A stretch of 54,707 nt of DNA from Candidatus Rokuibacteriota bacterium. GTDB lineage: Bacteria; Methylomirabilota; Methylomirabilia; Rokubacteriales; CSP1-6. A program made the position numbers and the translations under genes. This document shows positions 14,306 through 48,254 of the stretch, one piece after another. The DNA lies in the NCBI GenBank assembly GCA_003220225.1, contig QHRU01000062.1:1-54707 (forward strand). Direction: 5' to 3'. Every line of letters starts with the position of its first letter. Within the stretch, counting starts at the first letter, position 1. The notes under the pieces were generated by a model. That model worked only from the letters and a program-made list of their open reading frames with translations, did no database searches and was not told where the DNA came from.

Positions 14306-15355
14306 TCAGGGCGACGACTGCACGGACTCCAGGAAGCTCAGGATCCGCACGATGTCCTCTTGCTTGAGGATCTCCTTCCACGGAGGCATGCCCTTGGCGC
14401 TCCGTCCCAGGGTGACCGCCTCGTAGAACACCGCCGTCATGCGCTCGCCGTAGCGGATGCGCAGGCGCCGCAGGTCGCGCGCCGGCTCGGGACTGTGAGC
14501 GTTCGGCGAGTGGCAGTGCGAGCAGTGCTGGTTGAACGCGCTCCGGCCGGCGGCGACGGCGTCGGTTGTCGACACCGGCGGCACCGCGGTGAGGTCGACG
14601 GCGGCGGCGAGCGGAAACCCATAGTGCTCGGCCCTACGCCGGATCTCGGGCGCGAGCTGGCCCAGCGCCTCGTCGATCCGCCGCCGGAGCGTCTCGTCAC
14701 CCTTGCGGACGCCGATGCCGATACGCCACTGCAAGCCCTCGCCCGCGACGGGCACGATGCGATACGCGCCGGCGAATTTCGTGACGTTGAGATAGCCGGC
14801 GATCGGCCCCCACACGAACGCCGCGTCGACCTCTTGCCGTCCAAGGGCCTCGACGGCTTCCTCGGCGGACCGGAACGTCGAGACGTTGAAGCCATCCTTC
14901 GAGGCGAGGAGTGACTGGGCCGGCGTCCTGAATTCCACGGCGAGGCGGCGCGGCTTCAGATCGTCGAGCCGGGCGAAGGCCAGCGACGGCGGCGCCACGA
15001 TCGCGTACCCGACGTCGAGGAATGGCCGAGAGACGGTGACACGCCGATCCATGTACCCCGCCTCGGCGGGCAGCCCAACGTAGGCGTCGCAGGTGTCGGC
15101 CAGGAGCGTGTTGCGCACCGCGCGGGCGCCGTAGAAGCTGCGCCACCACACCACGTCGGTCGTCATACCCAGACGGGCGGCCACGAGCGCGCCGACGTCG
15201 AGATAGAAGCCACGCTCGGGCCCCGTCGCGCTGCTGAACGGCAGGTTGTCGGGATCGGCGCACAGTCGCAGCGTGCCGGCGGGCGGGCCGGCCACCGAGA
15301 CGGATGCGGCGAGCGCCACCACGACGAGCAGCAGTCGAGGCAGATGACGGATCAT
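14306..15355 (-). CDS. XoxJ-like binding protein fused to cytochrome c
   Basis: A 349-residue periplasmic protein. After the signal peptide (LLLVVVALAASVSVAG), residues about 30-255 form an ABC-type solute-binding domain starting LRLCADPDNLPFSS, the pattern of the quinoprotein-dehydrogenase-associated XoxJ/MxaJ family. Residues about 265-349 form a cytochrome c domain with heme site CSHCH at 278-282 and a probable axial methionine in KGMPPWKEI. It sits directly downstream of PQQ dehydrogenase A, separated by a hairpin. XoxJ is thought to help mature or activate XoxF-type enzymes; the fused heme domain suggests that the same protein also takes the electrons. The start ATG 15355 begins a good signal peptide. 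Confidence 0.88.
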   Translation of the reverse strand: MIRHLPRLLLVVVALAASVSVAGPPAGTLRLCADPDNLPFSSATGPERGFYLDVGALVAARLGMTTDVVWWRSFYGARAVRNTLLADTCDAYVGLPAEAGYMDRRVTVSRPFLDVGYAIVAPPSLAFARLDDLKPRRLAVEFRTPAQSLLASKDGFNVSTFRSAEEAVEALGRQEVDAAFVWGPIAGYLNVTKFAGAYRIVPVAGEGLQWRIGIGVRKGDETLRRRIDEALGQLAPEIRRRAEHYGFPLAAAVDLTAVPPVSTTDAVAAGRSAFNQHCSHCHSPNAHSPEPARDLRRLRIRYGERMTAVFYEAVTLGRSAKGMPPWKEILKQEDIVRILSFLESVQSSP

Positions 15356-15369
15356 GACGCAGGAATCGA

Positions 15370-15397
15370 GGCGGGGGCCGGCACGCCGGCCCCCGCC
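15370..15397 (-). terminator. GC-rich hairpin between PQQ dehydrogenase A and its XoxJ-cytochrome gene
   Basis: A perfect 13-bp inverted repeat (15370-15382 with 15385-15397) lies just after the dehydrogenase stop codon. No T-run follows, so it may act as a partial terminator or as a 3' end protecting the dehydrogenase transcript. Confidence 0.6.
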
Positions 15398-15410
15398 CCG
15401 GCCACCCCGG

Positions 15411-17099
15411 CTACGGCGACGGAAGCTCGAACACGAAGAGCGCGCCGCCCTCGGGGCTCGCCGCCACCATCTGCTCGCCCATCTTTCCGAAGAACGGCGG
15501 GATGGCGAACGTGCGCCCCGAGACGACCGCGACGTACTGCTTGCCGTCGATGGCATACGTCATCGGCGCCGCGCTGATGCCGGAGCCGGCCATGAACTGC
15601 CACAGCGTCTGTCCGGTCTTCGCGTCGAGCGCCTTGAACCAGCCGTGGATGTCACCGTGGAAGAGGAGCCCGCTGGCCGTCGTCGTGATGCCGCCGATGT
15701 ACGGCAGGGTGTCCTTGTTGCCCCAGACCTTCTGCTGCTTGATCGGGTCCCAGGCGATGACTTCCCCGAGGTGGCCGCCCGGCCCCCACTTGCCGAGCTC
15801 GAACTCCACGCCGAGGTAGAAGGCGCCGCGCTTGTAGTCGACCGGCGCGGCGTTCATGTCCATGCAGATGTTCAGCGTCGGCATGTAGACGAGCCCGGTC
15901 TGCGGGCTGTAGCTCATCGGCATCCAGTTCTTGTTGCCGATGGCCGACGGGCAGACGTCCTTCGCGCGGAAGTTGACGCGCGGCCGCTTCTCGGGCACCT
16001 CGATCGGCCGGCCGGTGGTCATGTCCATCCCGCTCGTCCAGTTCGCGGTGGCGAACAGCTTGGCCGAGATGAGCTGGCCGGTCTTCCGGTTCAGGACGTA
16101 GAAGAACCCGTTGCGGTCCGCCTTGAAGAGCACGGGCGTCTTCTGGCCGTTGATCTCGACGTCGGCCAGGACGTTTTCGTTGACGCCGTCGTAGTCCCAG
16201 GCGTCGTGCGGCGTCGACTGGTAGAACCAGGCCAGCTTCCCCGTGTCCGCGTCGAGCGCCACGGTGCTCGACGAGAACAGGTTCGTGAACTGGCCGTAGT
16301 TCGAGCTGTCCGGGCCGCGCACGGCCGCGTTCCACGGCGCCGGATTGCTGGTGCCGTAGTAGATGAGGTTCAGGGCGGGGTCGTAGGACCCGATGGCCCA
16401 CGCGACGGCGCCGCCGTACTTCCAGGAGTCGCCCTTCCACGAATCGTTGCCGGGCTCGCCGGGGCCGGGCACCGTGTAGAAGCGCCACACCTCGCGCCCG
16501 TCCGCCTGGTCGTAGGCCGCGATGTACCCGCGCGCGCCATACTCGCCGCCGCCGAAGCCGGTGACCACGAGGTTCTTGGCGAGCGTGGGCGGCGAGGTGA
16601 TGACCGAGCCCTGCGTGTGATCGACGACCTGCGTCTTCCACACTTCCTTGCCGGTCGCCGCGTCGAGCGCGACCAGCGCGCCGTCGAGCCGTCCCACGAA
16701 GACGCGCCCGTTGGCGTAGGCGACCCCGCGGTTGTTGACGTCGCAGCAGGCGTACTGATCGATGCCGGCCGGGACCTCCGGCGAGTACCGCCAGCGCACG
16801 ACGCCGGTCTTGGCGTCCACGGCGAAGACGTTCTTCGGACCGTGCGACGACGTCACGTAGAGCGTGTCGCCGATGACGAGCGGCGTGGACTCCTGGGACC
16901 GGAGCGAGCCGAGCTGGAGCACCCACGCGACCTTGAGGTTCTTCACGTTGCCCGGGTTGATCTGGGTGAGGGTGCTGTAGCGCGTGTTGCCGGGGTCGCC
17001 GCCGTACACGGGCCAGCCGCCCGACTGCGCCTGGGCGGTGACGGCAAGGACCAGGACGACCGCGAACGCGATGACGGACGAAAGAGCGGGTCTGTTCAT
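15411..17099 (-). CDS. PQQ-dependent dehydrogenase A (XoxF-like, lanthanide-type)
   Basis: A 562-residue periplasmic quinoprotein with signal peptide (cleavage after AQA) and an eight-bladed propeller with tryptophan-docking repeats such as VALDAATGKEVW. The adjacent cysteine pair that lies over PQQ is at 118-119 (ACCDVNN). The metal-site Glu is in GGGEYGARG, Asn in TSNPAPWN, and the catalytic Asp302 is followed by Asp304 (WDYDGVNE); this second Asp is the mark of lanthanide-using enzymes rather than calcium MxaF. The ATG at 17099 has an AGGAGG site upstream. Promoter TTGACA-N18-TAGTCT lies about 100 bases upstream. It would oxidise methanol or another alcohol; the exact substrate is unknown. 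Confidence 0.92.
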   Translation of the reverse strand: MNRPALSSVIAFAVVLVLAVTAQAQSGGWPVYGGDPGNTRYSTLTQINPGNVKNLKVAWVLQLGSLRSQESTPLVIGDTLYVTSSHGPKNVFAVDAKTGVVRWRYSPEVPAGIDQYACCDVNNRGVAYANGRVFVGRLDGALVALDAATGKEVWKTQVVDHTQGSVITSPPTLAKNLVVTGFGGGEYGARGYIAAYDQADGREVWRFYTVPGPGEPGNDSWKGDSWKYGGAVAWAIGSYDPALNLIYYGTSNPAPWNAAVRGPDSSNYGQFTNLFSSSTVALDADTGKLAWFYQSTPHDAWDYDGVNENVLADVEINGQKTPVLFKADRNGFFYVLNRKTGQLISAKLFATANWTSGMDMTTGRPIEVPEKRPRVNFRAKDVCPSAIGNKNWMPMSYSPQTGLVYMPTLNICMDMNAAPVDYKRGAFYLGVEFELGKWGPGGHLGEVIAWDPIKQQKVWGNKDTLPYIGGITTTASGLLFHGDIHGWFKALDAKTGQTLWQFMAGSGISAAPMTYAIDGKQYVAVVSGRTFAIPPFFGKMGEQMVAASPEGGALFVFELPSP

Positions 17100-17197
17100 C
17101 GAAAGCCTCCTGGATGGCGGGGACTCCGGCACATCTCTTCCCTCGCTCTTCGGGGAGCTGCGAGGCCAATGCGTGATGCGGTCGAAAAGCAAGCGTG

Positions 17198-18454: not shown

Positions 18455-20524
18455 ATGCGGTCTGACCGTCAGCGATGGCTCCCGGCGGCGGCAACGGTCG
18501 GCTTCTTCCTCCTCCTGCTGGTCGTCCCCGCGCGGGCGGCCGATCCGGAGATCGACCGGCTGCTCCGGAGCCCGGCGGGCAAGGACTGGGTCACGAACGG
18601 CGGCAACCTCACCAACCAGCGGTATTCGACGCTGACTCAGATCAACACCACGAACGTCAAGCAGCTCAAGGGCGCCTGGATGACGCGCCTGAAGGGCTCG
18701 GGCGTCGGCGGCAAGTACTCGTTCGAGGCCTCGCCCCTCGTCAAGAACGGGATCATGTACGTGGTCACGGGCAACGACGACGTCTTCGCGCTGAACGCCA
18801 AGACGGGCGAGATCCTCTGGGAGTACTGGTCCGGGATCGACCAGAAGATCTCCACCGTGTGCTGCGGCTGGGTCAACCGCGGTCTCGCCATGGGCGAGGG
18901 GCTGCTCTACTTCGGTCAGCTCGACGCGAACGTCGTCGCGCTGGACATGAAGACCGGCAAGGTGAAGTGGAAGACGCCCATCGAGAAGTGGGAGAACGGC
19001 TACACCATCACGAGCGCGCCACTCTACTACGAGGGCCTCGTGTACAGCGGCATCTCGGGCGGCGAGTTCGGCGTGCGTGGGCGCGTCACCGCGCTGGACG
19101 CCAAGACCGGCGAGATCAAGTGGCGCTGGTACACGCTGCCCGGGCCGGGGGAGCGTGGCAGCGAGACCTGGCCGCCCGGCACCGACCATTCGATGCGCGG
19201 CGGCGCCACGGTCTGGAACACGCCCGCGCTCGATCCGCAGCTCGGCCTCCTCTACTTCGCGGCCGGCAACTGCGGGCCGGATTACGACGGCTCGATGCGC
19301 GAGGGCGACAACCTGTTCTGCACGTCGATGGTCGCGCTGAAGGCGAAGACCGGCGAGTACGTCTGGCACTTCCAGCAGGTCCACCACGACATCTGGGACT
19401 ACGACGCGGCCAGCCCGGTCGTGCTCTTCGATACCGTGATCGACGGCCAGCCGCGCAAGGGCATCGCCGAGGCCGGCCGGACCGGCTGGGTCTACATCCT
19501 GGATCGCACGAACGGCAAGCCGCTGATCGGCATCGAGGAGCGGCCGGTGCCGCAGGAGCCGCGGCAGAAGACGGCGAAGACGCAGCCGTACCCCAAGGGC
19601 GACGCGACCGTGCCGCAGTGTGCCGAGCCGATGCCGGCCTACGAGAAGGCCGGCTGCATCTTCGAGGTCTTCTGGGAAACCCCGGTGATCGTGCAGCCCT
19701 CGGGCCTGGGCGGAACGAACTGGTCGCCGGTGCCGTACAGCCCCGACACGGGCTACTTCTACGTCCCCGGGACCATCCGCACCGGCGCCTTCGCGCGCTA
19801 CGGCGACACGTTCCGTGTCGGCCAGCGCTACGTCGGCGGCACGCAGGCGGCGCCGATCGGCACCCAGATGAGCGGCACGTTCACCGCGATCGACGGCAAG
19901 ACGAACACGATCGCCTGGCAGCACAAGACGCCGTACCGCATCGGGGGTGGCGGCGGCTCGACGGTCACGGCCGGCGGCCTCGTGTTCCGTGGCGAGCCCG
20001 ACGGCAACTTCCTCGCGATCGACGCGAAGACGGGTCAGGAGCTCTGGCGCTTCCAGACCGGCTTCGGCGCCGATGCGCCGCCCGTCATCTACGAGGCGGA
20101 CGGCGAGCAGTTCGTCGTGATCGCCACGGGCGGCAATCAGCTGCAGGGCAGCGCCAACGGTGACGCGGTCTGGGCCTTCTCCTTGAAGGGACAGCTCGGG
20201 CCGCTGTGGCCGCCGCCTCCGCCGCCGACCGTCGCGGGGCCCGTCGGGCCGATCGCGACCGGCGTCGACACGATCAAGATGGGCGGCAACAACGTGGAGT
20301 ACAGCTTCGTGCCGGCCCGCGTCCGGATCAAGGCGGGCAGCACGCTGAACTTCACGAACGTCGGCGACCTGCCGCACGGGGCGACGGCGTGGCAAGAGGG
20401 CAACTGGGATACCGGCGTGCTTCCGAACGGCCAGGCGAAGTCCATCACCTTCGCGAAGCCGGGGAACTACTACTACATCTGCACACCGCATCCCTGGATG
20501 TACGGGCAGGTCATCGTGGAGTAG
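18455..20524 (+). CDS. PQQ-dependent dehydrogenase B fused to an amicyanin-like cupredoxin
   Basis: A 689-residue secreted quinoprotein (signal cleavage after ARA). Residues about 35-580 are the PQQ propeller with adjacent cysteines 136-137 (TVCCGW), Glu in SGGEFGVRG, Asn in AGNCGPDYD and the lanthanide-type pair Asp315/Asp317 (IWDYDAA). A proline-rich hinge (WPPPPPPTVAGP) leads to an 85-residue blue-copper domain with ligands His641, Cys676, His679 and Met682; the C-x2-H-x2-M spacing and CTPHPWM sequence match amicyanin, the electron acceptor of methylamine dehydrogenase. Known quinohemoprotein alcohol dehydrogenases have a cytochrome at this place instead. The fused copper domain should accept electrons from PQQ within the same chain. 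The substrate is unknown. Confidence 0.93.
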   Translation: MRSDRQRWLPAAATVGFFLLLLVVPARAADPEIDRLLRSPAGKDWVTNGGNLTNQRYSTLTQINTTNVKQLKGAWMTRLKGSGVGGKYSFEASPLVKNGIMYVVTGNDDVFALNAKTGEILWEYWSGIDQKISTVCCGWVNRGLAMGEGLLYFGQLDANVVALDMKTGKVKWKTPIEKWENGYTITSAPLYYEGLVYSGISGGEFGVRGRVTALDAKTGEIKWRWYTLPGPGERGSETWPPGTDHSMRGGATVWNTPALDPQLGLLYFAAGNCGPDYDGSMREGDNLFCTSMVALKAKTGEYVWHFQQVHHDIWDYDAASPVVLFDTVIDGQPRKGIAEAGRTGWVYILDRTNGKPLIGIEERPVPQEPRQKTAKTQPYPKGDATVPQCAEPMPAYEKAGCIFEVFWETPVIVQPSGLGGTNWSPVPYSPDTGYFYVPGTIRTGAFARYGDTFRVGQRYVGGTQAAPIGTQMSGTFTAIDGKTNTIAWQHKTPYRIGGGGGSTVTAGGLVFRGEPDGNFLAIDAKTGQELWRFQTGFGADAPPVIYEADGEQFVVIATGGNQLQGSANGDAVWAFSLKGQLGPLWPPPPPPTVAGPVGPIATGVDTIKMGGNNVEYSFVPARVRIKAGSTLNFTNVGDLPHGATAWQEGNWDTGVLPNGQAKSITFAKPGNYYYICTPHPWMYGQVIVE

Positions 20525-20528
20525 GCCG

Positions 20529-21467
20529 GTGCGCGTGACGGGGGGCGCGCGGGTGGTGCCCATCGCCCTCGTCCTCGCTGTGTGCGTTCTCCGTCACGCG
20601 TCGCCGGCGGCAGCGGGCGAGCTGTCGCCGACGGTGGCGGGGACGTTGCAGCCCATGATCACGACGTCCGAGCTGGTCGTGGGCCGCAACCGATTCGCCT
20701 TCGGGCTGCTCAAGGACGGAAGCCTCCTCGCCGCCGGCGACGTCGCGCTCCGGGTGTACGACATCCGTGAGCCGGAGGCCCAGCTCGTCGCCGTGACGCC
20801 GGCCGTCTACCACGCGCTCGAGGTGATCGAGCAGGGCCGTCACATCCACATCCACCCGGACGGCACGCGGCACGCGCACGACACGGCCACCGACGTGCGG
20901 GGAATCTACGTGGCGCAGCTGACGCTCGAGCGCCCAGGGCCCTGGGGCCTCGAGATCGTCGTCCGGCAGGCCAACGGCGCCGTCGAGGCGGCGCGCCTGA
21001 GCGTCGATGCGCTGCCGGTGCCGCGCAGCCCGATGCCGGGGACGCCGGCCCCACGCAGCCGCAATCTCATCGCCAGCGACGTGAGCGACCTGAGGCAGAT
21101 CGATTCGAGTGAGCCACCCGATGCGCGGCTGCATCAGACCCGGATCGCGGATGCGATCCGCGAGGGTCGACCGCAGGTCATCGTCTTCGCGACGCCGAAA
21201 TACTGCACCAGTCGGGTCTGTGGACCGGTCCTGGACGTCGTGCGCACGCTGATCCCCGCCTACGGTCGTCGCGTCGCCTTCGTTCATCAGGAGATCTGGC
21301 AGCCGGGGGGCATGGACAAGCTCGCCCCCACGGTCGAGGAGTGGAACCTCCGATCCGAGCCGTGGACGTTCGTCGTGGGCGGAGACGGCGTGATCCGCGC
21401 CAGATTCGAGGGGCTGACGACGCGGCGGGAGCTCGAGGCGGTCCTGAGGCAGATGCTCCGGCCGTGA
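20529..21467 (+). CDS. Secreted thioredoxin-fold protein with His-rich metal segment
   Basis: A 312-residue protein starting at GTG 20529, four bases after the stop of dehydrogenase B, so it is very likely coupled to it. After a signal peptide (cleavage after AAAG or SPAAA) comes a beta-rich domain with a His-rich loop (RHIHIHPDGTRHAHD, about residues 113-127). The second half resembles a thioredoxin/Sco fold (PQVIVFATPKYCTSRVCGP), but with a CxxxxC spacing rather than CxxC or CxxxC. A role as copper chaperone or assembly factor for the fused cupredoxin domain is a reasonable inference from position and ligands, not proven. Confidence 0.75.
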   Translation: MRVTGGARVVPIALVLAVCVLRHASPAAAGELSPTVAGTLQPMITTSELVVGRNRFAFGLLKDGSLLAAGDVALRVYDIREPEAQLVAVTPAVYHALEVIEQGRHIHIHPDGTRHAHDTATDVRGIYVAQLTLERPGPWGLEIVVRQANGAVEAARLSVDALPVPRSPMPGTPAPRSRNLIASDVSDLRQIDSSEPPDARLHQTRIADAIREGRPQVIVFATPKYCTSRVCGPVLDVVRTLIPAYGRRVAFVHQEIWQPGGMDKLAPTVEEWNLRSEPWTFVVGGDGVIRARFEGLTTRRELEAVLRQMLRP

Positions 21468-23166: not shown

Positions 23167-24818
23167 GTCGGCCTCTCGACGCGGCCGGCCGCCGGCCGCG
23201 CGAGCCGGTGGACCTGCCACCCGTACGAGAACGTCTGGCGGTAGATCACCCCGCGATCGCTCGGGCAGTAGGTGGCGTCGATGCGCGGGCTCACCGGCAG
23301 ATGGCAGAGGAGTCGGTGGATCCCGAGCTCGAGGACCCGGGTGTGCCGCCCGGCCCGGTACACCAGGTCGCTGCGCCCGCTCAGGAGCGCGTTCATGGCG
23401 TTGTCGCCTCTCCCGTCCCGGTTGTGCGGGGCGATGCGCACGGTAGGCCGTGGTTGATCGGCCATTTCCGGCGTCGCCACGAACACGTCGGCCGATGACG
23501 GCGCGTCGGGTCCCGCGCGGGCGAGGGGTTCCACGACGACGTCGGGTCGTCGCTTGATCTCTGACAGGTGCATCGGCAGCTCGAAGAAATACTCGTTCAC
23601 AGGGGTGATGTTGAGGACGACGTGGCTGCGGCTCGGCAGGCTCGCCAGGAAATCGACCAGGTCCGCGTTCGCTCGGTCCACGGCAAGCTGGACCCGCGCG
23701 TCCGCCACCGCATTCACCCCCGCGGGAACCCAGAGCAGTCCGCTCGCCACGAGCACGGACCACGCCATGCGCCGTCTCGTGAGCGGCTGCTCGGGGCCGC
23801 GCGCATACCAGGAGGCGCCGACGACTGTGCCGGCGAGCACGGCGGCCCCGAACGCAAACGGGAGCAGGTAGTACGCGAACGTCGCCGGCCACGGCAGGTA
23901 GACGGCGAGCCAGCCGGCCATCCAGACGCACGCGTACAGGATCGGTCGACGCCAGGCCGGCCGGCCGCCGACCCGAGAGAGGAGGGCGACCGCCAGCAGC
24001 GGCAGAAGGAACGCGAAGTCCCGGACAATCCGGGCGGAGATCCGAAACACCGCGGCACCGACGACTCCGCTGTGGAGCGCGTACGCCCGCGTGTACGTTC
24101 CCTCCGCGAGCCCGAGCGGTGCGTAAGACCACCGCAGGGCGATGAACGTCGCCGCCGCGACCAGGTTGATCACGACGTAGGTGGTCGCGAAGCGCGCCCA
24201 GGTTTCCCGTTTCTCGGTCGACCGCCGCTCGATCGCGAGCCAGCCCACGGAGACCAGGACGAGGACGAGGCTCGTCTCCTTCGTCGCATGGGCGAGCAGC
24301 AACGTGACGGCGGCCAGCGTGAGCAGTCCCGCCCGTCTCACCGATCGCGCCGCGCTCGCGGCGGCCGCGGTCGCGAGGAGCGAGAGGCCGATCCACGTCA
24401 TCTGCAGCGGTTCGGCCTTCGAGAGGGTGTAGAAGCTCTCGACCGCCGGCCCGGAGAGCGCGAACAGCAGCGCCGCGACCGACGCCTGCAGGCGCGTCCC
24501 CCCGCTCGATCGCACCAGTCGAGCGAGCATCGCGAGGACGCCGGCGAACAGCAGGACATTGACCGTGAAGAAGGCGAGCGGCCGAACGCCGACGATGCCA
24601 AAGATGACCGAGTAGACGAGCCAGTAGGCCGGGAAGAACCGGCCCGTCTCGGGGATGAGGTGGAGCACGCTCGACCACCGGCCGATCACCTCACGTCCCG
24701 TCTGCAGCGTCAGGCCGTCGTCGAGGAGTCCGAACTGCGGTGAGGCCAGCCTGGGCAGCATGACGAGCACGGCCAGGGCCACGGGGCCGAGCATCCACAC
24801 GATTGACCGGTCCCTCAT
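23163..24818 (-). CDS. Multi-pass membrane glycosyltransferase-like protein (GT-C type)
   Basis: A 551-residue protein with about ten hydrophobic helices and a soluble C-terminal domain of roughly 180 residues. The first loop has an acidic pair (FGLLDDGLTL, residues about 29-38), where GT-C enzymes such as ArnT or protein mannosyltransferases carry the catalytic acid. Similarity to a named family is weak, so this is a fold-level call. Its place next to a polyprenol-phosphate sugar transferase supports the role of transferring a lipid-linked sugar on the outer face of the inner membrane. Start ATG 24818 overlaps the previous stop. Confidence 0.65.
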   Translation of the reverse strand: MRDRSIVWMLGPVALAVLVMLPRLASPQFGLLDDGLTLQTGREVIGRWSSVLHLIPETGRFFPAYWLVYSVIFGIVGVRPLAFFTVNVLLFAGVLAMLARLVRSSGGTRLQASVAALLFALSGPAVESFYTLSKAEPLQMTWIGLSLLATAAAASAARSVRRAGLLTLAAVTLLLAHATKETSLVLVLVSVGWLAIERRSTEKRETWARFATTYVVINLVAAATFIALRWSYAPLGLAEGTYTRAYALHSGVVGAAVFRISARIVRDFAFLLPLLAVALLSRVGGRPAWRRPILYACVWMAGWLAVYLPWPATFAYYLLPFAFGAAVLAGTVVGASWYARGPEQPLTRRRMAWSVLVASGLLWVPAGVNAVADARVQLAVDRANADLVDFLASLPSRSHVVLNITPVNEYFFELPMHLSEIKRRPDVVVEPLARAGPDAPSSADVFVATPEMADQPRPTVRIAPHNRDGRGDNAMNALLSGRSDLVYRAGRHTRVLELGIHRLLCHLPVSPRIDATYCPSDRGVIYRQTFSYGWQVHRLARPAAGRVERPT

Positions 24819-26830
24819 CGGCTCATGATCCAGTCCCAGTGCTGGTCGGCTCGCTCGAGCACTCTCGGGACATCTTCGCGGAGCAGCAAGCCCGCCGCCA
24901 CGAGTGACTCGGCCGCTCGAGCCGCCGTCGCACGGTACTCGCGCTTGTCCGCATAGCGGCGCTCGAGGCTCAGCCGGCTGTCGCTCCAGCGCTGGCGCTC
25001 GGTGTCGGTCCGCGGCAGCGGGACGTAGGTGCCGAGGAAGTCGACCAGCTCCGCGGCGTCGCTTCCGTGGCCCCCGCGGAGCTGCCAGGGCGTGTAGGTG
25101 GCCAGCGGCGCCAGGAGCTCGACGCCTCGCACCCCGGCCACCTCGTTGCCGTCGGCGTCGACCTGCGAGACCAGCGCGGGGAACGGCGCCCCGATCCCGG
25201 GCGGCTCCCGCGTGATGATGCCGGCGGCCCAGCGCGGACCGTAGTCGACGCGGTGGGCCTGGTGGATCACGCTCGGGGCTCTCACATCGGGGATCCGCGG
25301 GAACTTGAGCGCGTCGATGGAGACGAGCGTCCCCGCCGCGAGGGTGGGATAGACGCTCGCCGGAGGCGTGCGGCCGTCCACCACCCACTCGACGAGACGC
25401 GCCAGAAGCGCGCGCAGCGTCACCTGAAAGTCGAGCGGGTTGCCGCGATACGCGCGGCCGGCGCGCTCCGATGTCGTCGGCGGGAAGCCGCCGATGAAGT
25501 GCTGGCCGCCGGCGAGATGGTAGATGCGCTCGTTGGGCAGTGGCGTCACGTCGACCCGCCCGTCGGGTGAGGTATGAATCAGCGAGGCGGCCCGTCCCCA
25601 GTACTCGTACCCGGTGTTCGTGACGACGATCTTCGGCCACTGATCCGGGCGGTCCGCCGATCGCGCGAGGAGCCCGTCCGCGATGCCCGTCTCGGGATCG
25701 GTCTGCGTCCGGCTCGTGAACGGGAAGAGGTCCGTGGGATAGAAGAACGCCGAGAAGCGGTGGGCGTCACGCGAGGGCTGCGCGAAGCGATGGTTGAAGC
25801 TCCCGCGCCCCGCGCCGGCGGTGTGAACGAGCAGCCCGTCGAAGACTTTCCGGCCGGCCTCGTCGGTGTTGAACCCCTGGTACAGGAAGTGGCGCAGGAA
25901 ACGCCCGCTCTGCGAGATGCCGGCGCCGATGGCCGCCGTGACCCGAAATTCCGACCGGGAATCGTAGCGGGCCCATGAGATGACGTCGCGCACGGCGGCC
26001 AAGCCGATCCCGACGACGACCGGATCCCGCGCCCGATAGACGAGCTCGTAAATCTTGCCGCGCTGGAAGCCGCCGGCGAGATGGATGTGCGTCGGGTCGT
26101 CCACGAGCCGACCGTCGTCCAGCCGGGCGAAGCGCCACCGGTCGCGCGGGACGATCTCTCTGGGTCCGAGCCGGGCGGAGCGTACCGTCAGCACGTTGTC
26201 CGCATGCCGGGGGTCGGCCACCGGATAGGCCACGTGGTCGCGATGGGCGAGCGGTAATGTCGTGGTCGGTCGCTCGACCGTCCAATCGCTGCGCACGAGC
26301 CCCTCGATCGGACCGTCGGCGTCGCGCGCGATCGGCGCGCGGAGCCGCAGCAACCCCGGCTGGCGGGGCACGTCGAACTGCCAGCCGACCCAGATGAGCG
26401 TGAGATGCAGGCGCATCAGGAGTCGATCGCCGAAGTCCTCGGCCGTCGAGGGGTCGAGGCTCCAGGTCGCGCGATTGAAGTAGGGGAGCAAGGCCTTGCC
26501 GCCACGGTTGCTCACTTCGAGCAGCGCCGTCGATCCTCGCGCAGGCGGACGGCGGGGCCGCAACACCATGAAGTCCGCCGAGGCCTCCACGCGGCCGCGC
26601 GCGTTGCGGGGCGCGCGGTCGAGATCCACGATGGCCGCATTGGCCGGATGCGCCGGGTCCAGCTCCAGCTCGACGGTCCCGCCGAGCTTTTCGTAGTCGC
26701 CGCCCAGGACCTCCTCACGCGTGCTCACGACGAGCCGCCGGACCTCGGCGTTCGCGGTGCCGGCCGCCGCGAGGATGACAACGACGACGGCGAGCGCGAG
26801 TCCCGAGCTCCGCGACGGCCTGAGGGTCAT
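24815..26830 (-). CDS. Secreted large alpha/beta hydrolase-domain protein
   Basis: A 671-residue exported protein (signal cleavage after ANA) of the alpha/beta-hydrolase-domain family often annotated simply by that name (Abhydrolase_10 type). The candidate nucleophile is the serine in GAGISQSGRFLRHFLYQG; a late His lies in QHFIGGFPP or GGHGSDAAE. The length and the N-terminal beta-rich half fit the family. It overlaps both neighbours by four bases. The family has no well-defined substrate; an ester of a sugar or a lipid would fit the glycan-related neighbours. Confidence 0.75.
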   Translation of the reverse strand: MTLRPSRSSGLALAVVVVILAAAGTANAEVRRLVVSTREEVLGGDYEKLGGTVELELDPAHPANAAIVDLDRAPRNARGRVEASADFMVLRPRRPPARGSTALLEVSNRGGKALLPYFNRATWSLDPSTAEDFGDRLLMRLHLTLIWVGWQFDVPRQPGLLRLRAPIARDADGPIEGLVRSDWTVERPTTTLPLAHRDHVAYPVADPRHADNVLTVRSARLGPREIVPRDRWRFARLDDGRLVDDPTHIHLAGGFQRGKIYELVYRARDPVVVGIGLAAVRDVISWARYDSRSEFRVTAAIGAGISQSGRFLRHFLYQGFNTDEAGRKVFDGLLVHTAGAGRGSFNHRFAQPSRDAHRFSAFFYPTDLFPFTSRTQTDPETGIADGLLARSADRPDQWPKIVVTNTGYEYWGRAASLIHTSPDGRVDVTPLPNERIYHLAGGQHFIGGFPPTTSERAGRAYRGNPLDFQVTLRALLARLVEWVVDGRTPPASVYPTLAAGTLVSIDALKFPRIPDVRAPSVIHQAHRVDYGPRWAAGIITREPPGIGAPFPALVSQVDADGNEVAGVRGVELLAPLATYTPWQLRGGHGSDAAELVDFLGTYVPLPRTDTERQRWSDSRLSLERRYADKREYRATAARAAESLVAAGLLLREDVPRVLERADQHWDWIMSR

Positions 26831-30227: not shown

Positions 30228-31247
30228 CTACTGGCGCGCGGAGTCCGTCGCGAGCTGCTTGACGTAGCGCGCGATGGCGCGGATGTCTTCCTCGCTGATC
30301 AGGCCCTTCCACGGTGTCATGCCGGTGCCGGGCCGCCCGGTCTGGACGACTCGAACGAAGTCCGCCTCGCTGCCCTTGAACGCCTGGAGATTCGAGGCGG
30401 CCGGGGTTCCCTTGGCGTCGGTGCCATGGCATTGCGAGCACTGCGTGAGGAACGTCGACCGCGCGGCGCGAAGCTCCGGGCTCAGGGTCGTCCCCGGCGG
30501 TCGAGCCTGGGCCAGCGTGATCCCGTAGCGTGCGAGGATGGCCGGGAGCGTCGTGGCCGCCAGCTGCTGGATGGCGCGGTCCACCGACGCCTTGAGGTCC
30601 AGATCCGCTTTGCGGACGGCGGCGCCGATCTGGAGATCGCGACCGGGATCGCCGATCTCGGTCGCGACGAAGCCGGCGTTCCGCGTGACGAACCAGCCCG
30701 CGAGCGGCGATTCCATGACCACCGCATCCACCTCGCCCCTGAGAAGCGCATCGAACGTCTCGTCGGGCGTCACGTAGACTTTGCGGTTGTATCCGCGCCC
30801 GTAGACCAGCTGATCGCTGAGCGTCATCGCCTGGACGCCGACGACCCTGGATTTGAGATCCTCGAGCGAACGGACGCCGCCGACACTCGAGGCGACCACG
30901 ACCTGGCGCATGACATAGTACGGCGCGGACAGGCTCAGCCGGGGCTTGTCGTCCATGAAGCCCGCGGTGATGGGAAAGCCCATGACGAGGTCGCACCGAC
31001 GCTCGTAGAGCTGCCGGAGCACGATGATCTCCCGCGCGGTGGGAACCCAGTGGACCGTCAGCTCCGCCTCGAGCGCCGCCGCGATGGCGCGGGCGATCTC
31101 GACCTCGAAGCCCGGCTCCCCGGCGTCCCGACTGGAGAACGGCAGGTTCGACGGATCCGCGCACAGCCGGAGCCGCCGAACCTCGCCGGCGCTGCTCGTG
31201 GTCGCGATCAGGACGATCGCGACCACGAGCCACCACAGTATTCTCAC
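30228..31247 (-). CDS. XoxJ-like binding protein fused to cytochrome c (second copy)
   Basis: A 339-residue periplasmic protein built like the one at 14306-15355: signal peptide, solute-binding domain beginning LRLCADPSNLPFSS, and a C-terminal cytochrome c with CSQCH at 270-274 and a probable axial methionine in GTGMTPWKGL. It is clearly diverged from the first copy outside the motifs. The start ATG 31247 overlaps the stop of PQQ dehydrogenase C by four bases, so the two are translationally coupled with no hairpin between. It likely assists that enzyme and may accept its electrons. Confidence 0.9.
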   Translation of the reverse strand: MRILWWLVVAIVLIATTSSAGEVRRLRLCADPSNLPFSSRDAGEPGFEVEIARAIAAALEAELTVHWVPTAREIIVLRQLYERRCDLVMGFPITAGFMDDKPRLSLSAPYYVMRQVVVASSVGGVRSLEDLKSRVVGVQAMTLSDQLVYGRGYNRKVYVTPDETFDALLRGEVDAVVMESPLAGWFVTRNAGFVATEIGDPGRDLQIGAAVRKADLDLKASVDRAIQQLAATTLPAILARYGITLAQARPPGTTLSPELRAARSTFLTQCSQCHGTDAKGTPAASNLQAFKGSEADFVRVVQTGRPGTGMTPWKGLISEEDIRAIARYVKQLATDSARQ

Positions 31248-33564: not shown

Positions 33565-34659
33565 TCACGCGCGCTCGGCCACGCGGGCCGTTCGATACGT
33601 GAGGCTGGCCGCCGGCTCCAGCGCCTGGGCCCGAGCCGCCTCGACGAGGGCGTGGGCCGGCGCCAGCGAGCACGCGGGGTCGGTGGCGGCCGCGTCACCG
33701 GTGAGGTGGTACGCCTGGCAGCGACACCCGCCGAAGTCGACCGCGCGGCGATCGCAGCTGCGGCAGGGCTCCGGCATCCACGCCTCGCCACGGAAGGCGC
33801 CGAAGGCGGTGGAGTGCCGCCAGATCTCGGCGAGCGGCCGCGCGCGCGCGTTGTCGAACGTGAGGCCCGGGAGGGTGTGGGCGGCGTGGCACGGCAACAC
33901 CAATCCATCGGGCGCCACGACCAGGAAGCGGCGTCCCCACCCGTCCATGCACGCCTTCGGGAACTCCGCGTAGTAGTCGGGCGTGACGAACAGGACCTCC
34001 ATGCGTCCCTGCAGACGGCGCCGCGCCGCGCGCGCGACGTCGCGCGCGGCGTCGAGCTGCTCGCGCGTGGGCAAGAGGGTCCGCCGGTTCACGAGGGCCC
34101 AGCCGAGGTATTGCGTGTTGGCGAGCTCGAGTCGATCGGCGGCGAGCGATTCGGCGAGCGCGATGACGGCGGCGACGCGATCGAGGTTGTCGCGGTGCAG
34201 GACCACGTTGAGCGTGAGCGGGAATCCGAGCTCCTTCACCCAGCGGGCGACCTCGAGCTTCCGATCGAACGTGCGCGCGCCCGCGATGCGATCCGACTCC
34301 GCGGCGGTGACGTCCTGGATCGACACCTGCACGTTGTCGAGGCCGAGCGCCTTGAGTCGCGCCAGCCGCTCGCGCGCGAGGGGGATCCCGCTGGTGATCA
34401 GGTTGGTGTAGAGATCGAGCCGCCGCGCGCCCTCCACGAGCTGCTCGAGGTCGTCGCGCAGCAGCGGCTCGCCGCCGGTGAGATTGAGCTGCACGACTCC
34501 GAGCGCCTCCGCCTCGCGGAAGACGCGGAGCCAGTCGTCGGTGGTGAGCGCGTCGGCGTGCCGGTTCCAGTCGGTCGGATTCGAGCAGTACACGCAGCGC
34601 AGCGGGCAGCGGTAGGTCAGCTCGGCGACGAGCGTGTAGGGTCGCGGCTCCTCACTCAT
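33565..34659 (-). CDS. pqqE: PqqE, radical SAM PqqA peptide cyclase
   Basis: A 364-residue radical SAM enzyme that joins the Glu and Tyr side chains of PqqA, the first step of PQQ synthesis. The SAM-cluster cysteines are Cys18, Cys22 and Cys25 (CPLRCVYC). The C-terminal SPASM region supplies further cluster cysteines (ACMDGWGRR, LPCHAAH, PEPCRSCDRR, GCRCQAY). It needs PqqD as peptide chaperone; pqqD lies immediately upstream and overlaps by eight bases. All essential motifs are present. Confidence 0.97.
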   Translation of the reverse strand: MSEEPRPYTLVAELTYRCPLRCVYCSNPTDWNRHADALTTDDWLRVFREAEALGVVQLNLTGGEPLLRDDLEQLVEGARRLDLYTNLITSGIPLARERLARLKALGLDNVQVSIQDVTAAESDRIAGARTFDRKLEVARWVKELGFPLTLNVVLHRDNLDRVAAVIALAESLAADRLELANTQYLGWALVNRRTLLPTREQLDAARDVARAARRRLQGRMEVLFVTPDYYAEFPKACMDGWGRRFLVVAPDGLVLPCHAAHTLPGLTFDNARARPLAEIWRHSTAFGAFRGEAWMPEPCRSCDRRAVDFGGCRCQAYHLTGDAAATDPACSLAPAHALVEAARAQALEPAASLTYRTARVAERA

Positions 34660-34942
34660 CGCCGCTCCGGATGAGCCCGCGCTCCGCCATCCGACCCAGA
34701 AACGCGAGGATCTCGCGCTGGACGTCCTCGCGCGGCTGGGGCGCGTACTTGGCGGCGAGGCGGTCGACGATGGCGCCGACGGTGTGCTCGCCCGTGCACA
34801 GCTGCACCACGTCGGCGGCGGTGGGATTGAGCACGAGCCCGCGCTCCGGATAGAGCAGCAGGTAGCGCGACGTCTGCCGGTCCCAGCGGAGCCGCGCCTT
34901 GGCCGCCAGCGTCGGGCGGCTCTCCGCCGTGATCGCGCTCAC
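34652..34942 (-). CDS. pqqD: PqqD, PqqA-binding chaperone
   Basis: A 96-residue PqqD protein that presents PqqA to PqqE. The family pattern is visible: RLRWDRQTSRYLLLYPERGLVLNPTAADVV, here split as two parts around YPERG, then DRLAAKYA and a C-terminal helix. It starts with GTG 34942, overlapping the pqqC stop (GTGA), and its stop lies inside the pqqE start region. The longer upstream frame runs through pqqC and is not part of the protein. Confidence 0.93.
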   Translation of the reverse strand: MSAITAESRPTLAAKARLRWDRQTSRYLLLYPERGLVLNPTAADVVQLCTGEHTVGAIVDRLAAKYAPQPREDVQREILAFLGRMAERGLIRSGDE

Positions 34943-35676
34943 GCGCGGGCGCCGCCGGGGCCCCAGCCCGGCTCGACGTACGCCGTGTACAGGGAGTCGA
35001 GCAGGTGCCACAGGATCTCGGTCTTGCGGATCAGCGCCGCCACGCACCGCTCCTGCAGCTCATAGGTCGTCGCGCGTGCGGTCACGAAGTCGATCGCTTC
35101 GAGCGAGTCCTGGCGCGCGCGCGGCGGGCGCGTGCGGAAGTAGTCGAGCGTGTCCTTGTCGATCCACGGGTAGTGGCGCTCCCAGGCGAGCACCCGGCGT
35201 GTCATGAGATCCGGCGAGAAGAACTCGGTGAGCGACGAGGCCACCGCCTCCAGCAGGCTTCGCTCGCGGATGAGATGCACGTAGCCGTCGCACGCGAAGC
35301 GCACGCCGGGCAGCACCGAGCGGCAGGACGCGACCTCCTCCCGATCGAGGCCGACGCCCTCGGCGAGTCGCAGCCACAGCTCCAGTCCACCCTCGCCGGC
35401 CGCGTCGCCGTCGTGATCGCGAATCCGACGGATCCACATGCGCCGGAAGGCGGGATCCTCCGACTTCGCCAGGATCAGGGCGTCCTTGATCGGCACCCGC
35501 GTCTGGTAGTAGTAGCGGTTGAGCACCCACTGCTGCAGCTGCAGACGCGTCAGCTTGCCGTCGTGCATCAGGTGGTGATAGCGGTGATGATCGTGGTAGC
35601 GGCTCTCGCCCTCGCGACGCACCCAGTCGATGAACTCCTCGCGCGTCAGCGGCGGGCGCGTCGATGGGTCGCTCAT
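34939..35676 (-). CDS. pqqC: PqqC, pyrroloquinoline-quinone synthase
   Basis: A 245-residue cofactorless oxidase that performs the final ring closure and oxidation to PQQ. The sequence runs as the family does: YHDHHRYHHLMHDGKL (active-site histidines), WVLNRYYYQTRVPIKDA, FACDGYVHLIRERSL and ERHYPWIDKDTLDYF. It starts at ATG 35676, overlapping the pqqB stop (ATGA), rather than at the upstream in-frame codon at 35700. Length is normal for the family. Confidence 0.97.
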   Translation of the reverse strand: MSDPSTRPPLTREEFIDWVRREGESRYHDHHRYHHLMHDGKLTRLQLQQWVLNRYYYQTRVPIKDALILAKSEDPAFRRMWIRRIRDHDGDAAGEGGLELWLRLAEGVGLDREEVASCRSVLPGVRFACDGYVHLIRERSLLEAVASSLTEFFSPDLMTRRVLAWERHYPWIDKDTLDYFRTRPPRARQDSLEAIDFVTARATTYELQERCVAALIRKTEILWHLLDSLYTAYVEPGWGPGGARA

Positions 35677-36596
35677 AGCCGCACCTCCATCCCGTCCCAC
35701 GCGACCTCCCAGCCGGCGGCGGCGACGGCGGCGCGCTCGCGTGAGTCTTCTCGCAGCATCGGGTTCGAGTTGTTGACGTGGATGTAGATCCGCCTCCCCG
35801 CTCGCACACCCGCGAGCTGCGCCAGGCTGCCGGTGGGCCCCCCGACGGGCAGGTGCGCCATCTCTTCCGCGCGCTTGGTCCCGAGCCCTGACGCCGACAG
35901 CTCGTCGCTGGACCAGAACGTTCCGTCGAAGAAGACGGCGTCCGCGTGGGCGATCGCCTGGCGCACGGCCTCGGTCACCGACGCCACCCCGCTCAGATAG
36001 GCGAGGACGCGACCGGTTCGCGCCTCTCGGATGCGGAACCCGACGCTGTCCCCGGGATCGGCCGGACTCCGGCCCTCGAGGTGCACGGGCGCCTTGCCCG
36101 GCACCGCGACCGCTTCGGCCGTCAGGCCGGTCGTGCGCCCGTCGACGTCGACGATGTCGTCCTCATGGCCGACCTTGAGGAGCCGCCACGTCACCTGTCC
36201 AGGGAAGCGCTCGAGCGTGCGATAGAGGACGTTGCCGCGCGTGAAGCCGCGCTCGACCGCGTCGGTCGCATACACGATCAAGCGGTGCGACTCGCGGAGC
36301 GACAGCAGCCCGAGGCAGTGATCGAGATCTCCGTTGGTCAGGAGGATCGCGGCGATCGGCGAGTGACGCGGCGCACGCGGATGCAGCGCGGGCGCGCTCT
36401 CGATCTGGCCGCGGACCTCGGGCGAGCAGTTCAGCAGCACGCAGCCGTCGGATCCGTCGGCGCTCACCGCCACGCACTCCTGTGTGCGCGCGCTCGCCCG
36501 GATCGTGCCCTCGCGAACACCGCGGCAGTTGGGACATCCGCAGTTCCACTGGGGGAACCCGCCTCCCGCCGCCGAGCCGAGCACACGGATCAGCAT
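35673..36596 (-). CDS. pqqB: PqqB, metallo-beta-lactamase-fold PQQ biosynthesis protein
   Basis: A 307-residue protein starting MLIRVLGSAAGGGFPQWNC, the invariant PqqB N-terminus; this fixes the start at ATG 36596 rather than the GTG at 36608. NGDLDHCLGLLSLRESH holds the metallo-hydrolase core motif. PqqB acts between PqqE and PqqC, hydroxylating or oxidising the cross-linked dipeptide. The zinc-site CGCPNC is near the N-terminus. It is separated from pqqA by an 87-base gap with a strong hairpin. Confidence 0.96.
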   Translation of the reverse strand: MLIRVLGSAAGGGFPQWNCGCPNCRGVREGTIRASARTQECVAVSADGSDGCVLLNCSPEVRGQIESAPALHPRAPRHSPIAAILLTNGDLDHCLGLLSLRESHRLIVYATDAVERGFTRGNVLYRTLERFPGQVTWRLLKVGHEDDIVDVDGRTTGLTAEAVAVPGKAPVHLEGRSPADPGDSVGFRIREARTGRVLAYLSGVASVTEAVRQAIAHADAVFFDGTFWSSDELSASGLGTKRAEEMAHLPVGGPTGSLAQLAGVRAGRRIYIHVNNSNPMLREDSRERAAVAAAGWEVAWDGMEVRL

Positions 36597-36616
36597 CGTC
36601 GTTCCCACAAAGACGA

Positions 36617-46431: not shown

Positions 46432-46460
46432 TTGACCTGGGTTGTCCTTCGACGGATTCT
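46432..46460 (+). promoter_or_regulatory. Promoter of the soxCD-type genes
   Basis: TTGACC (46432-46437), 17-base spacer, GATTCT (46455-46460). The -35 box is the other arm of the palindrome shared with the divergent promoter. GGAGGG lies before the ATG at 46490. Confidence 0.5.
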
Positions 46461-46489
46461 CGGGCGGATCGGTGACCAGGAGGGCGACG

Positions 46490-47731
46490 ATGGACCCGTC
46501 CAAGCGGAGATTCCTCAAGCGGAGCGTCGTGCTGCTCGGCGCGAGTGGCCTGGTGACGAGCGGGAGCAAGGAGGTGGGGGCGTTCGAGCCGCCCGACGTC
46601 CCGCCGTGGATGAAGTCTCCGGGCGCCGGGTTCAACGAGTACGGCGTCCCGTCCAAGCACGAGAGCAAGGTGACGCGCACCTTGATCCGATCGCAGCCGG
46701 GGACGACCGGCAGCGGCGCCGCCCGCACGCCGCTGGAAGCGCTCGACGGGACGCTCACGCCGAGCGGCCTGCATTTCGAGCGAAGCCACAGCGGCGTGCC
46801 GGACATCGACCCCGACAAGCATCGCCTGCTCATCCACGGCATGGTCAAGCGTCCGCTGATCTTCACGATCGACGCGCTCTTGCGATACCCGATGGTCTCG
46901 CGGATCCACTTCTTGGAATGCTCCGGCAACAGCCAATTCCTCTACCAGCCGACGCCGCCGAGCCTGACCGCCGGCCAGACGCACGGCCTCGTCTCGTGCA
47001 GCGAGTGGACCGGCGTGCCCCTGCGCCTGCTGCTGGAGGAGGCGGGCGTCGATCCTGGCGCGCCATGGATCCTGGCCGAGGGTGCCGACGCCGCCGCCAT
47101 GAGCCGCAGCGTCCCCATGGCCAAGGCGATGGACGATGCGATGCTCGCGCTGTTCCAGAACGGCGAGCGCCTGCGGCCGGAGAACGGCTATCCGGTGCGC
47201 CTGTTCCTTCCCGGGTGGGAGGGCAACATGAGCGTGAAGTGGCTGCGGCGCCTCAAGGTGGTCCCGGCGCCGATCATGACCAAGGACGAGACCTCCCGCT
47301 ATACCGACCTTCAGGCCGACGGCAGGTCGCTCATGTTCACGTACCCGATGGAGGTGAAGTCGGTCATCACGCGCCCGTCGCACGGCATGACTCTCAAGGG
47401 CGCCGGGCTCTACCAGATTTCCGGGATCGCCTGGTCCGGCGGCGGCACGATCAGCAGGGTCGAGGTCACCAGCGACGGCGGGCGGACGTGGACCGCGGCG
47501 CCGCTGAGCCCGCTCGTGCTGCCTCGCGCGCTCACGCGCTTCCGGTTGCCCTGGCGCTGGGACGGCAGCGCGAGCGTGCTGAAGTCGCGCGCCACCGACG
47601 ACACGGGGGCCGTGCAGCCCGAACGCGACAGGTTCATCGCCGACCACGGCAACAACGCCATCTTCCACTGCAACGCGATCCAGGCCTGGGGCGTGGCCGC
47701 CAACGGCGAGGTGAAGCATGTCTACGCGTGA
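46490..47731 (+). CDS. soxC: Sulfite dehydrogenase, SoxC-type molybdoenzyme
   Basis: A 413-residue exported molybdopterin enzyme of the sulfite-oxidase family. The Tat motif is SKRRFLKRSVVLLG. The molybdenum-ligand cysteine is in HFLECSGNSQ, and the substrate-site arginine region in MVSRIHFLE. A C-terminal Ig-like dimerisation domain (SRVEVTSDGGRTW) is complete. Start ATG 46490 is chosen for its GGAGGG site rather than the earlier in-frame ATG at 46442, which lies in the promoter region. It overlaps the cytochrome gene by 14 bases. It oxidises sulfite or a sulfane-sulfur intermediate. Confidence 0.92.
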   Translation: MDPSKRRFLKRSVVLLGASGLVTSGSKEVGAFEPPDVPPWMKSPGAGFNEYGVPSKHESKVTRTLIRSQPGTTGSGAARTPLEALDGTLTPSGLHFERSHSGVPDIDPDKHRLLIHGMVKRPLIFTIDALLRYPMVSRIHFLECSGNSQFLYQPTPPSLTAGQTHGLVSCSEWTGVPLRLLLEEAGVDPGAPWILAEGADAAAMSRSVPMAKAMDDAMLALFQNGERLRPENGYPVRLFLPGWEGNMSVKWLRRLKVVPAPIMTKDETSRYTDLQADGRSLMFTYPMEVKSVITRPSHGMTLKGAGLYQISGIAWSGGGTISRVEVTSDGGRTWTAAPLSPLVLPRALTRFRLPWRWDGSASVLKSRATDDTGAVQPERDRFIADHGNNAIFHCNAIQAWGVAANGEVKHVYA

Positions 47732-48254
47732 TCTCGCGTGGGCCGTGATCGCGGTCGTCGCCGCGGGATGCGCGCGGGCGACCGTCGTGGAGACGCCGAA
47801 CCTCGGCCGGCCGGCGACGGCGGCCCAGATCGCCGGCTGGGACATCAGCGTCGGCCCCGACGGCGTCGGGCTCCCGCCGGGAAGCGGGACGGCGGCGAAG
47901 GGCGCCGTGGTCTACGAGCAGAAGTGCCAGGCCTGCCACGGCGCCAAGGGCGCGGGCCAGCCCAACGATCGCCTCGTCGGCGGCCAGGGGACGCTGGCGA
48001 GCAAGACGCCGGTGCGCACGATCGGCAGCTACTGGCCCCATGCGACGACCATCTTCGACTACACGCGCCGCGCGATGCCCTACGTTCAGCCGCAATCGCT
48101 CACCGACGACGAGGTCTACGCCGTCACCGCGTACCTGCTCCATCTCAACGGCATCATCGGTGACAGCGACGAGATCAACGCGCGGACGTTGCCGACGGTG
48201 AAGATGCCGAACCGCGACAATTTCATCATCATGTACCCCGCCCGGCCGCGCTGA
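47718..48254 (+). CDS. soxD: Cytochrome c subunit, SoxD-type
   Basis: A 178-residue mono-heme cytochrome with CQACH at residues 70-74 and a probable axial methionine in RRAMPYVQPQ. The N-terminus (VIAVVAAGC) may be a lipoprotein signal with Cys18 as anchor. The family pattern DISVGPDGVGLPPGSGTA matches the cytochrome subunits of sulfite dehydrogenases. Overlap with soxC shows that it is its electron-accepting partner. Its last 26 bases overlap the convergent transporter gene. Confidence 0.9.
   Translation: MSTRDLAWAVIAVVAAGCARATVVETPNLGRPATAAQIAGWDISVGPDGVGLPPGSGTAAKGAVVYEQKCQACHGAKGAGQPNDRLVGGQGTLASKTPVRTIGSYWPHATTIFDYTRRAMPYVQPQSLTDDEVYAVTAYLLHLNGIIGDSDEINARTLPTVKMPNRDNFIIMYPARPR

Follow-up and report, generated by a model that had tools for sequence, protein, structure and literature searches.

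The open reading frame at positions 18455–20524 (+) of the window, that is, of the whole 54,707-nucleotide stretch analysed here (contig 99 of a 6.0 Mb host genome in 167 contigs), encodes a single chain that begins with an apparent signal peptide and continues with a PQQ propeller, then a proline-rich linker and finally a type 1 copper domain. Close relatives place the host genome among the Rokubacteria. The product is likely to be a PQQ alcohol/aldehyde dehydrogenase of the periplasm, probably dependent on a lanthanide, whose electron carrier is a tethered C-terminal blue copper domain; we infer the identity of the metal, the internal transfer, the acceptor and the substrate. The computed support for this reading comes from the presence of both domains with all their ligands, the alternation of haem and copper among relatives, selection on both domains and the gene neighbours, and the pqq synthesis genes found in the same window provide supporting context. 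Among the points against it are the existence of ligand-less cupredoxin relatives and that of two rokubacterial paralogues which have Asn at position 315 despite their copper site.

The fusion gene starts with ATG and codes for 689 amino acids; its GC content by codon position (0.61/0.50/0.95) shows the strong bias typical of a real gene. A putative Sec-type signal peptide at residues 1–28 (18455..18538, +; MRSDRQRWLPAAATVGFFLLLLVVPARA, preceding ADPEI) predicts secretion of the protein to the periplasm. The PQQ dehydrogenase beta-propeller spans residues 45–560 (18587..20134, +), the proline-rich linker residues 579–605 (20189..20269, +; PLWPPPPPPTVAGPVGPIATG; alignment A1) and the copper domain residues 607–689 (20273..20521, +). 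Both domains are matched by Pfam in the single chain, PQQ at residues 45–554 (PF01011, 1.6e-98) and Copper-bind at residues 607–689 (PF00127, 1.6e-10, over the curated cut-off). A proline-rich linker leading to a complete type 1 copper domain was the layout given in the preliminary description, and its residue numbers (Asp315/Asp317, His641, Cys676, His679 and Met682) proved exact when checked by position. Modelled with AlphaFold2, the full chain reaches a mean pLDDT of 89.1 and a pTM of 0.89, and its top PDB match in Foldseek is PedH. Purifying selection acts on both domains (dN/dS of 0.09–0.16 for the propeller and 0.18–0.39 for the cupredoxin), the cupredoxin evolving about twice as fast as the propeller. 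A chimeric assembly is untenable because of this selection and because the fusion recurs across several phyla (29 distinct fusion proteins, including those of named Bradyrhizobium genomes), and a chance occurrence of the ligand motif is ruled out by the Pfam, profile and structure matches. No promoter or terminator was found by a scan around the fusion gene, and no tRNA within the window.

The PQQ–metal site of the propeller is complete by residue. It comprises the vicinal Cys136-Cys137 at the disulfide position (18860..18865, +), aligned with the CC of PedH, XoxF and quinohaemoprotein ADH; Glu204 (GGEFG; 19064..19066, +) and Asn272 (GNCGP; 19268..19270, +), which align with metal ligand positions; Asp315; and Arg342. 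Asn422-Trp423 was likewise confirmed by position. In the alignment, Asp315-Tyr-Asp317 (19397..19405, +) supplies the catalytic Asp and the extra, lanthanide-marking Asp: the pair matches HDEWDYD of XoxF and HDGWDFD of PedH, whereas the type II quinohaemoproteins 1kv9 and 1yiq read DSWDFT/DAWDYT, with Thr in place of Asp317. The lanthanide-type Asp pair noticed beforehand is thus borne out. Position 342 is Arg, as in XoxF and PedH, and Lys in haem-bearing relatives. The fusion enzyme probably uses a lanthanide, to judge by the D-x-D motif, which is an indication of lanthanide and not proof of it. PedH (6zcw) and XoxF (6dam), the best PDB matches of the propeller, have in common with the fusion the Asp pair, the Glu, Asn and Arg, the vicinal cysteines and the fold; unlike the fusion they have no tethered carrier and pass electrons to separate cytochromes. 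Because the propeller scores 465.9 bits against TIGR03075 (PQQ methanol/ethanol-type dehydrogenase), slightly below the NCBIfam cut-off of 480 bits, sequence comparison makes it a member of the PQQ propeller superfamily that lies on the border of that subfamily.

On profile and model evidence, the C-terminal domain is a type 1 copper (cupredoxin) domain. Its predicted ligand set (His-Cys-His and an axial Met) is complete, as had been claimed: His641 (20375..20377, +) is followed by Cys676, His679 and Met682 in the C-T-P-H-P-W-M loop (20480..20500, +), and the domain is predicted to be loaded with copper. The first His, the Cys and the second His are invariant in 26 of 26 aligned copper domains. 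Of the 29 distinct fusions, 23 have Met as the axial ligand and 6 have Gln, and the Gln forms are all from Rokubacteria; Gln is the axial ligand of the stellacyanin type and lowers the potential. Modelled alone with AlphaFold2, the domain gave a pLDDT of 92.8 and a pTM of 0.85, and Foldseek aligned it with the C-terminal cupredoxins of NirK-type proteins, plastocyanin and amicyanin (TM 0.72–0.83). A domain search of the C-terminal 90 residues had been proposed as a check, and Pfam, AlphaFold2 and Foldseek all returned a cupredoxin fold.

The likeness to amicyanin put forward in the preliminary description held for the C-x2-H-x2-M spacing and did not hold for membership of the family. Amicyanins (1aac, 1id2) share this loop, the CTPHP motif and the cupredoxin fold with the fusion domain, but the curated model TIGR02657 gives 51.3 bits versus a cut-off of 110 bits, which rules out a true amicyanin, and the NirK-type C-terminal cupredoxins are equally close. 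Moreover, amicyanin is a free protein that serves methylamine dehydrogenase, whereas the fusion domain is tethered; the methylamine dehydrogenase light chain (PF02975) had no match in the host genome, and control genomes likewise gave none. The best structural matches of the copper domain are Thermus scotoductus NirK (6hbe), one of the redox-partner-linked copper nitrite reductases, and a Nitrosopumilus multicopper oxidase (9cck), in which a cupredoxin is likewise fused to a redox enzyme; their catalytic part is a copper enzyme, whereas that of the fusion is a quinoprotein. The T. scotoductus enzyme is reported to have Gln-coordinated type 1 copper sites (PMC6400189), which resemble those predicted for six fusion relatives.

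Haem c and copper are alternative carriers at one position of the HDIWDYD propeller. The nearest cupredoxin-free propellers (44–55% identical) have this same motif, and with it the Asp pair, and most of them terminate in a haem c domain with CxxCH. These quinohaemoproteins (Gammaproteobacteria, Bacillota and others; the haem-bearing loci among L052–L113) are the nearest propellers outside the fusion family, and their haem c domain stands where the fusion has its cupredoxin. In a propeller-only tree (mixture model), the copper fusions (18 rows, including the ligand-less Actinomycetota type; 91/99) are sister to the haem c clade (19 rows, 100/97); the tree is unrooted and does not give the order of haem and copper. 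The suggestion that the copper domain sits at a place normally held by cytochrome c agrees with the haem c found there in the sister clade, and iron seems to have been swapped for copper as the built-in electron outlet. Since two Chloroflexota fusions fall outside the copper clade, beside carrier-less enzymes, more than one gain or loss of the cupredoxin is probable.

Type II alcohol dehydrogenases carry a C-terminal cytochrome c. Like the fusion, the structures 1kv9, 1yiq and 1kb0 combine a PQQ propeller with a linker-tethered C-terminal one-electron carrier; theirs is haem c whereas that of the fusion is a type 1 copper domain, and their propellers are only about 31–32% identical to the fusion propeller. 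The CxxCH motif of a type II quinohaemoprotein is absent from the fusion chain. Relatives from Streptomyces, Amycolatopsis, Actinomadura and Sphingobium keep a cupredoxin-like domain that lacks the copper ligands (the Cys and the second His are absent). In this group (L110–L112 and L114–L119; Actinomycetota, Sphingobium), Glu204 is replaced by Thr and the vicinal CC pair is absent as well, so these proteins may be neither copper nor PQQ enzymes. Since the ligand-less relatives retain the domain, a cupredoxin in this position would be capable of a role other than electron transfer.

The survey of fusion frequency called for in the preliminary description revealed a family and not a single curiosity. 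The 29 distinct fusion proteins come from Rokubacteria, Alphaproteobacteria (Bradyrhizobium and Acetobacteraceae) and Chloroflexota, so at least three bacterial phyla contain the fusion and uniqueness to the lineage of the window is ruled out. Full-length homologues are 71–88% identical in Rokubacteria and in the two alphaproteobacterial groups, and the Chloroflexota fusions are more distant (about 46–50% identity), with several copies in one Chloroflexi MAG. Within the phylum of the window the fusion, full or partial, occurs in 12 of 95 genomes, all of the window's own family (in G002 it is in pieces). The fusion is scarce elsewhere. Counted with strict thresholds, it occurs in 3 of 196 genomes of Bradyrhizobium, 2 of 200 of Acetobacteraceae and 4 of 301 of Chloroflexota; all counts, that for the phylum of the window too, include the seed genomes. 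Plasmid records contained no close copy of the fusion, all matches being below 60% identity.

The genes around the fusion were also analysed. Adjoining it is a gene for a thioredoxin-like protein with C-x4-C and an HxH...HxH cluster (20529..21467, +), in which H107, H109, H115, H117, H202, C226, C231 and H253 are invariant in 11 homologues. This gene lies downstream of the fusion in 11 of 11 intact rokubacterial loci and is missing from both loci of the Asn315 paralogue. This neighbour may plausibly deliver copper; because homology to SCO1 was not supported when its profile was compared with that of the Bradyrhizobium protein, we call it a candidate only. In Bradyrhizobium, an SCO1-type copper chaperone adjoins the fusion in all three loci: in strain dw_411 the fusion gene overlaps at its end with an SCO1/SenC gene (PF02630, 5e-49), and the other two have a homologue directly downstream.

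The fusion lies in a dense PQQ island (15411–44876) which packs into 30 kb five PQQ dehydrogenases (the fusion and four more), pqqBCDE, a Rieske protein and a TonB receptor, with XoxJ-type proteins and cytochrome c genes as further members. A second, XoxF-like PQQ dehydrogenase (15411..17192, −) reaches 645 bits with TIGR03075, and the PQQ synthesis genes pqqE, pqqD, pqqC and pqqB occupy 33565..36608 (−). Two XoxJ/MoxJ-type periplasmic proteins with a C-terminal cytochrome c (14306–15556, −, and 30228–31247, −) are apparent XoxJ–XoxG fusions. A soxC-type sulfite dehydrogenase and its cytochrome c partner are encoded at 46442–48254 (+), 26 kb from the fusion, and Bradyrhizobium, the proteobacterial MAG L045 and one Rokubacterium likewise have such a pair adjacent or close to the fusion (L044, 5694–7491; L045, 6135–7926; L042, 13058–14852). 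This proximity hints at a sulfur-linked substrate or at a transfer unit in common. An Abhydrolase_10 protein (24815–26830, −), also found near the fusion in other Rokubacteria (61–62%) and in one Acetobacteraceae genome (36%), might serve to free an alcohol substrate by ester cleavage.

In the reading that we prefer, the substrate would be oxidised at the PQQ–metal site of the propeller, and PQQH2 would reduce the type 1 copper of the linked domain in two single-electron steps. This domain would swing on the proline-rich linker or dock over the propeller, and its copper would pass the electrons on to an oxidase or a soluble cytochrome c. The copper would be loaded, probably, by the neighbouring SCO1-type or thioredoxin-like protein, and the fusion would work as a copper counterpart of the type II quinohaemoprotein ADHs with their tethered cytochrome c. 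A path from a quinohaemoprotein-like enzyme to a cupredoxin has precedent, since azurin has been reported as the natural acceptor of a type II quinohaemoprotein ADH (PMC8348568). Exchange between haem and cupredoxin is made plausible by nitrite reductases, for which tethered carriers of both kinds, haem domain and cupredoxin, are reported (PMC6038957, PMC6400189, PMC9358711).

The copper domain might instead be a docking or recruiting module that positions a partner or stabilises the enzyme, PQQH2 reducing an external XoxG-like cytochrome c directly. XoxJ and cytochrome c genes, including the XoxJ–cytochrome fusions, are at hand in the same island, the ligand-less Actinomycetota relatives keep their cupredoxin without a copper site, and the domain evolves faster than the propeller; but the invariance of the copper ligands across phyla, the haem c at the same position in the sister clade and the copper-chaperone gene adjoining the fusion in Bradyrhizobium make this unlikely. 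That the propeller is calcium-dependent or non-enzymatic, its Asp pair being inherited and unused for lanthanide, appears very unlikely, since all PQQ and metal residues are present in the window protein and PedH, a lanthanide enzyme, is its closest structural match, even though lanthanide use is read from the D-x-D motif, the score with TIGR03075 is slightly below the cut-off and catalytic residues are lost in some relatives. We consider it likewise very unlikely that the copper domain is a site of electron entry or sensing, supplied for example by another periplasmic donor like the SoxC-type sulfite dehydrogenase pair, and not the outlet for PQQ: soxC and cytochrome c genes do lie next to or near the fusion in several of the loci listed above, but the pair was not seen near the fusion in Acetobacteraceae, and an intact PQQ site needs an outlet, of which the chain has no other.

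We lean, if only slightly, towards regarding quinocupredoxin dehydrogenases as an undescribed class, in which lanthanide–PQQ would feed a tethered blue copper, haem c and cupredoxin would have been exchanged at one position of a common lanthanide-type propeller, partner genes of its own would load the copper, and Met or Gln would tune the potential. As the preliminary description had supposed, no account of a PQQ–cupredoxin fusion was found in the open-access full-text literature searched; most subscription journals lie outside it, and an earlier mention there is possible. Huang et al. (2019, ISME J) have reportedly treated the diversity of rare-earth ADH. Methanol dehydrogenases of the lanthanide type are well documented in Rokubacteria by two studies, neither of which mentions a cupredoxin (PMC5103831, PMC6784897), and every PQQ multi-cofactor enzyme listed in a review carries a cytochrome (PMC6472588).

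If the preferred reading is true, lanthanide and copper would be found in one chain, where the step from PQQ to carrier could be observed directly by the 600-nm band; haem c and cupredoxin would be interchangeable modules on one catalyst; and lanthanide- and copper-dependent carbon turnover would be linked in soil Rokubacteria. The natural Met/Gln axial variants on nearly identical enzymes offer a ready test of potential versus rate, and the copper version is potentially useful for mediator-free alcohol electrodes.

Some rokubacterial genes depart from the pattern described above. A second paralogue (L014/L129 and L144) keeps the copper ligands and reads WNYD for WDYD, with Asn for the catalytic Asp315; in L014, Arg342 is replaced by His. 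This paralogue is without the thioredoxin-like neighbour, and genome G078 carries both types, the intact fusion and the Asn315 form. One further fusion gene (L046/L126) has an internal TAG at residue 190 and represents either a pseudogene or an assembly error.
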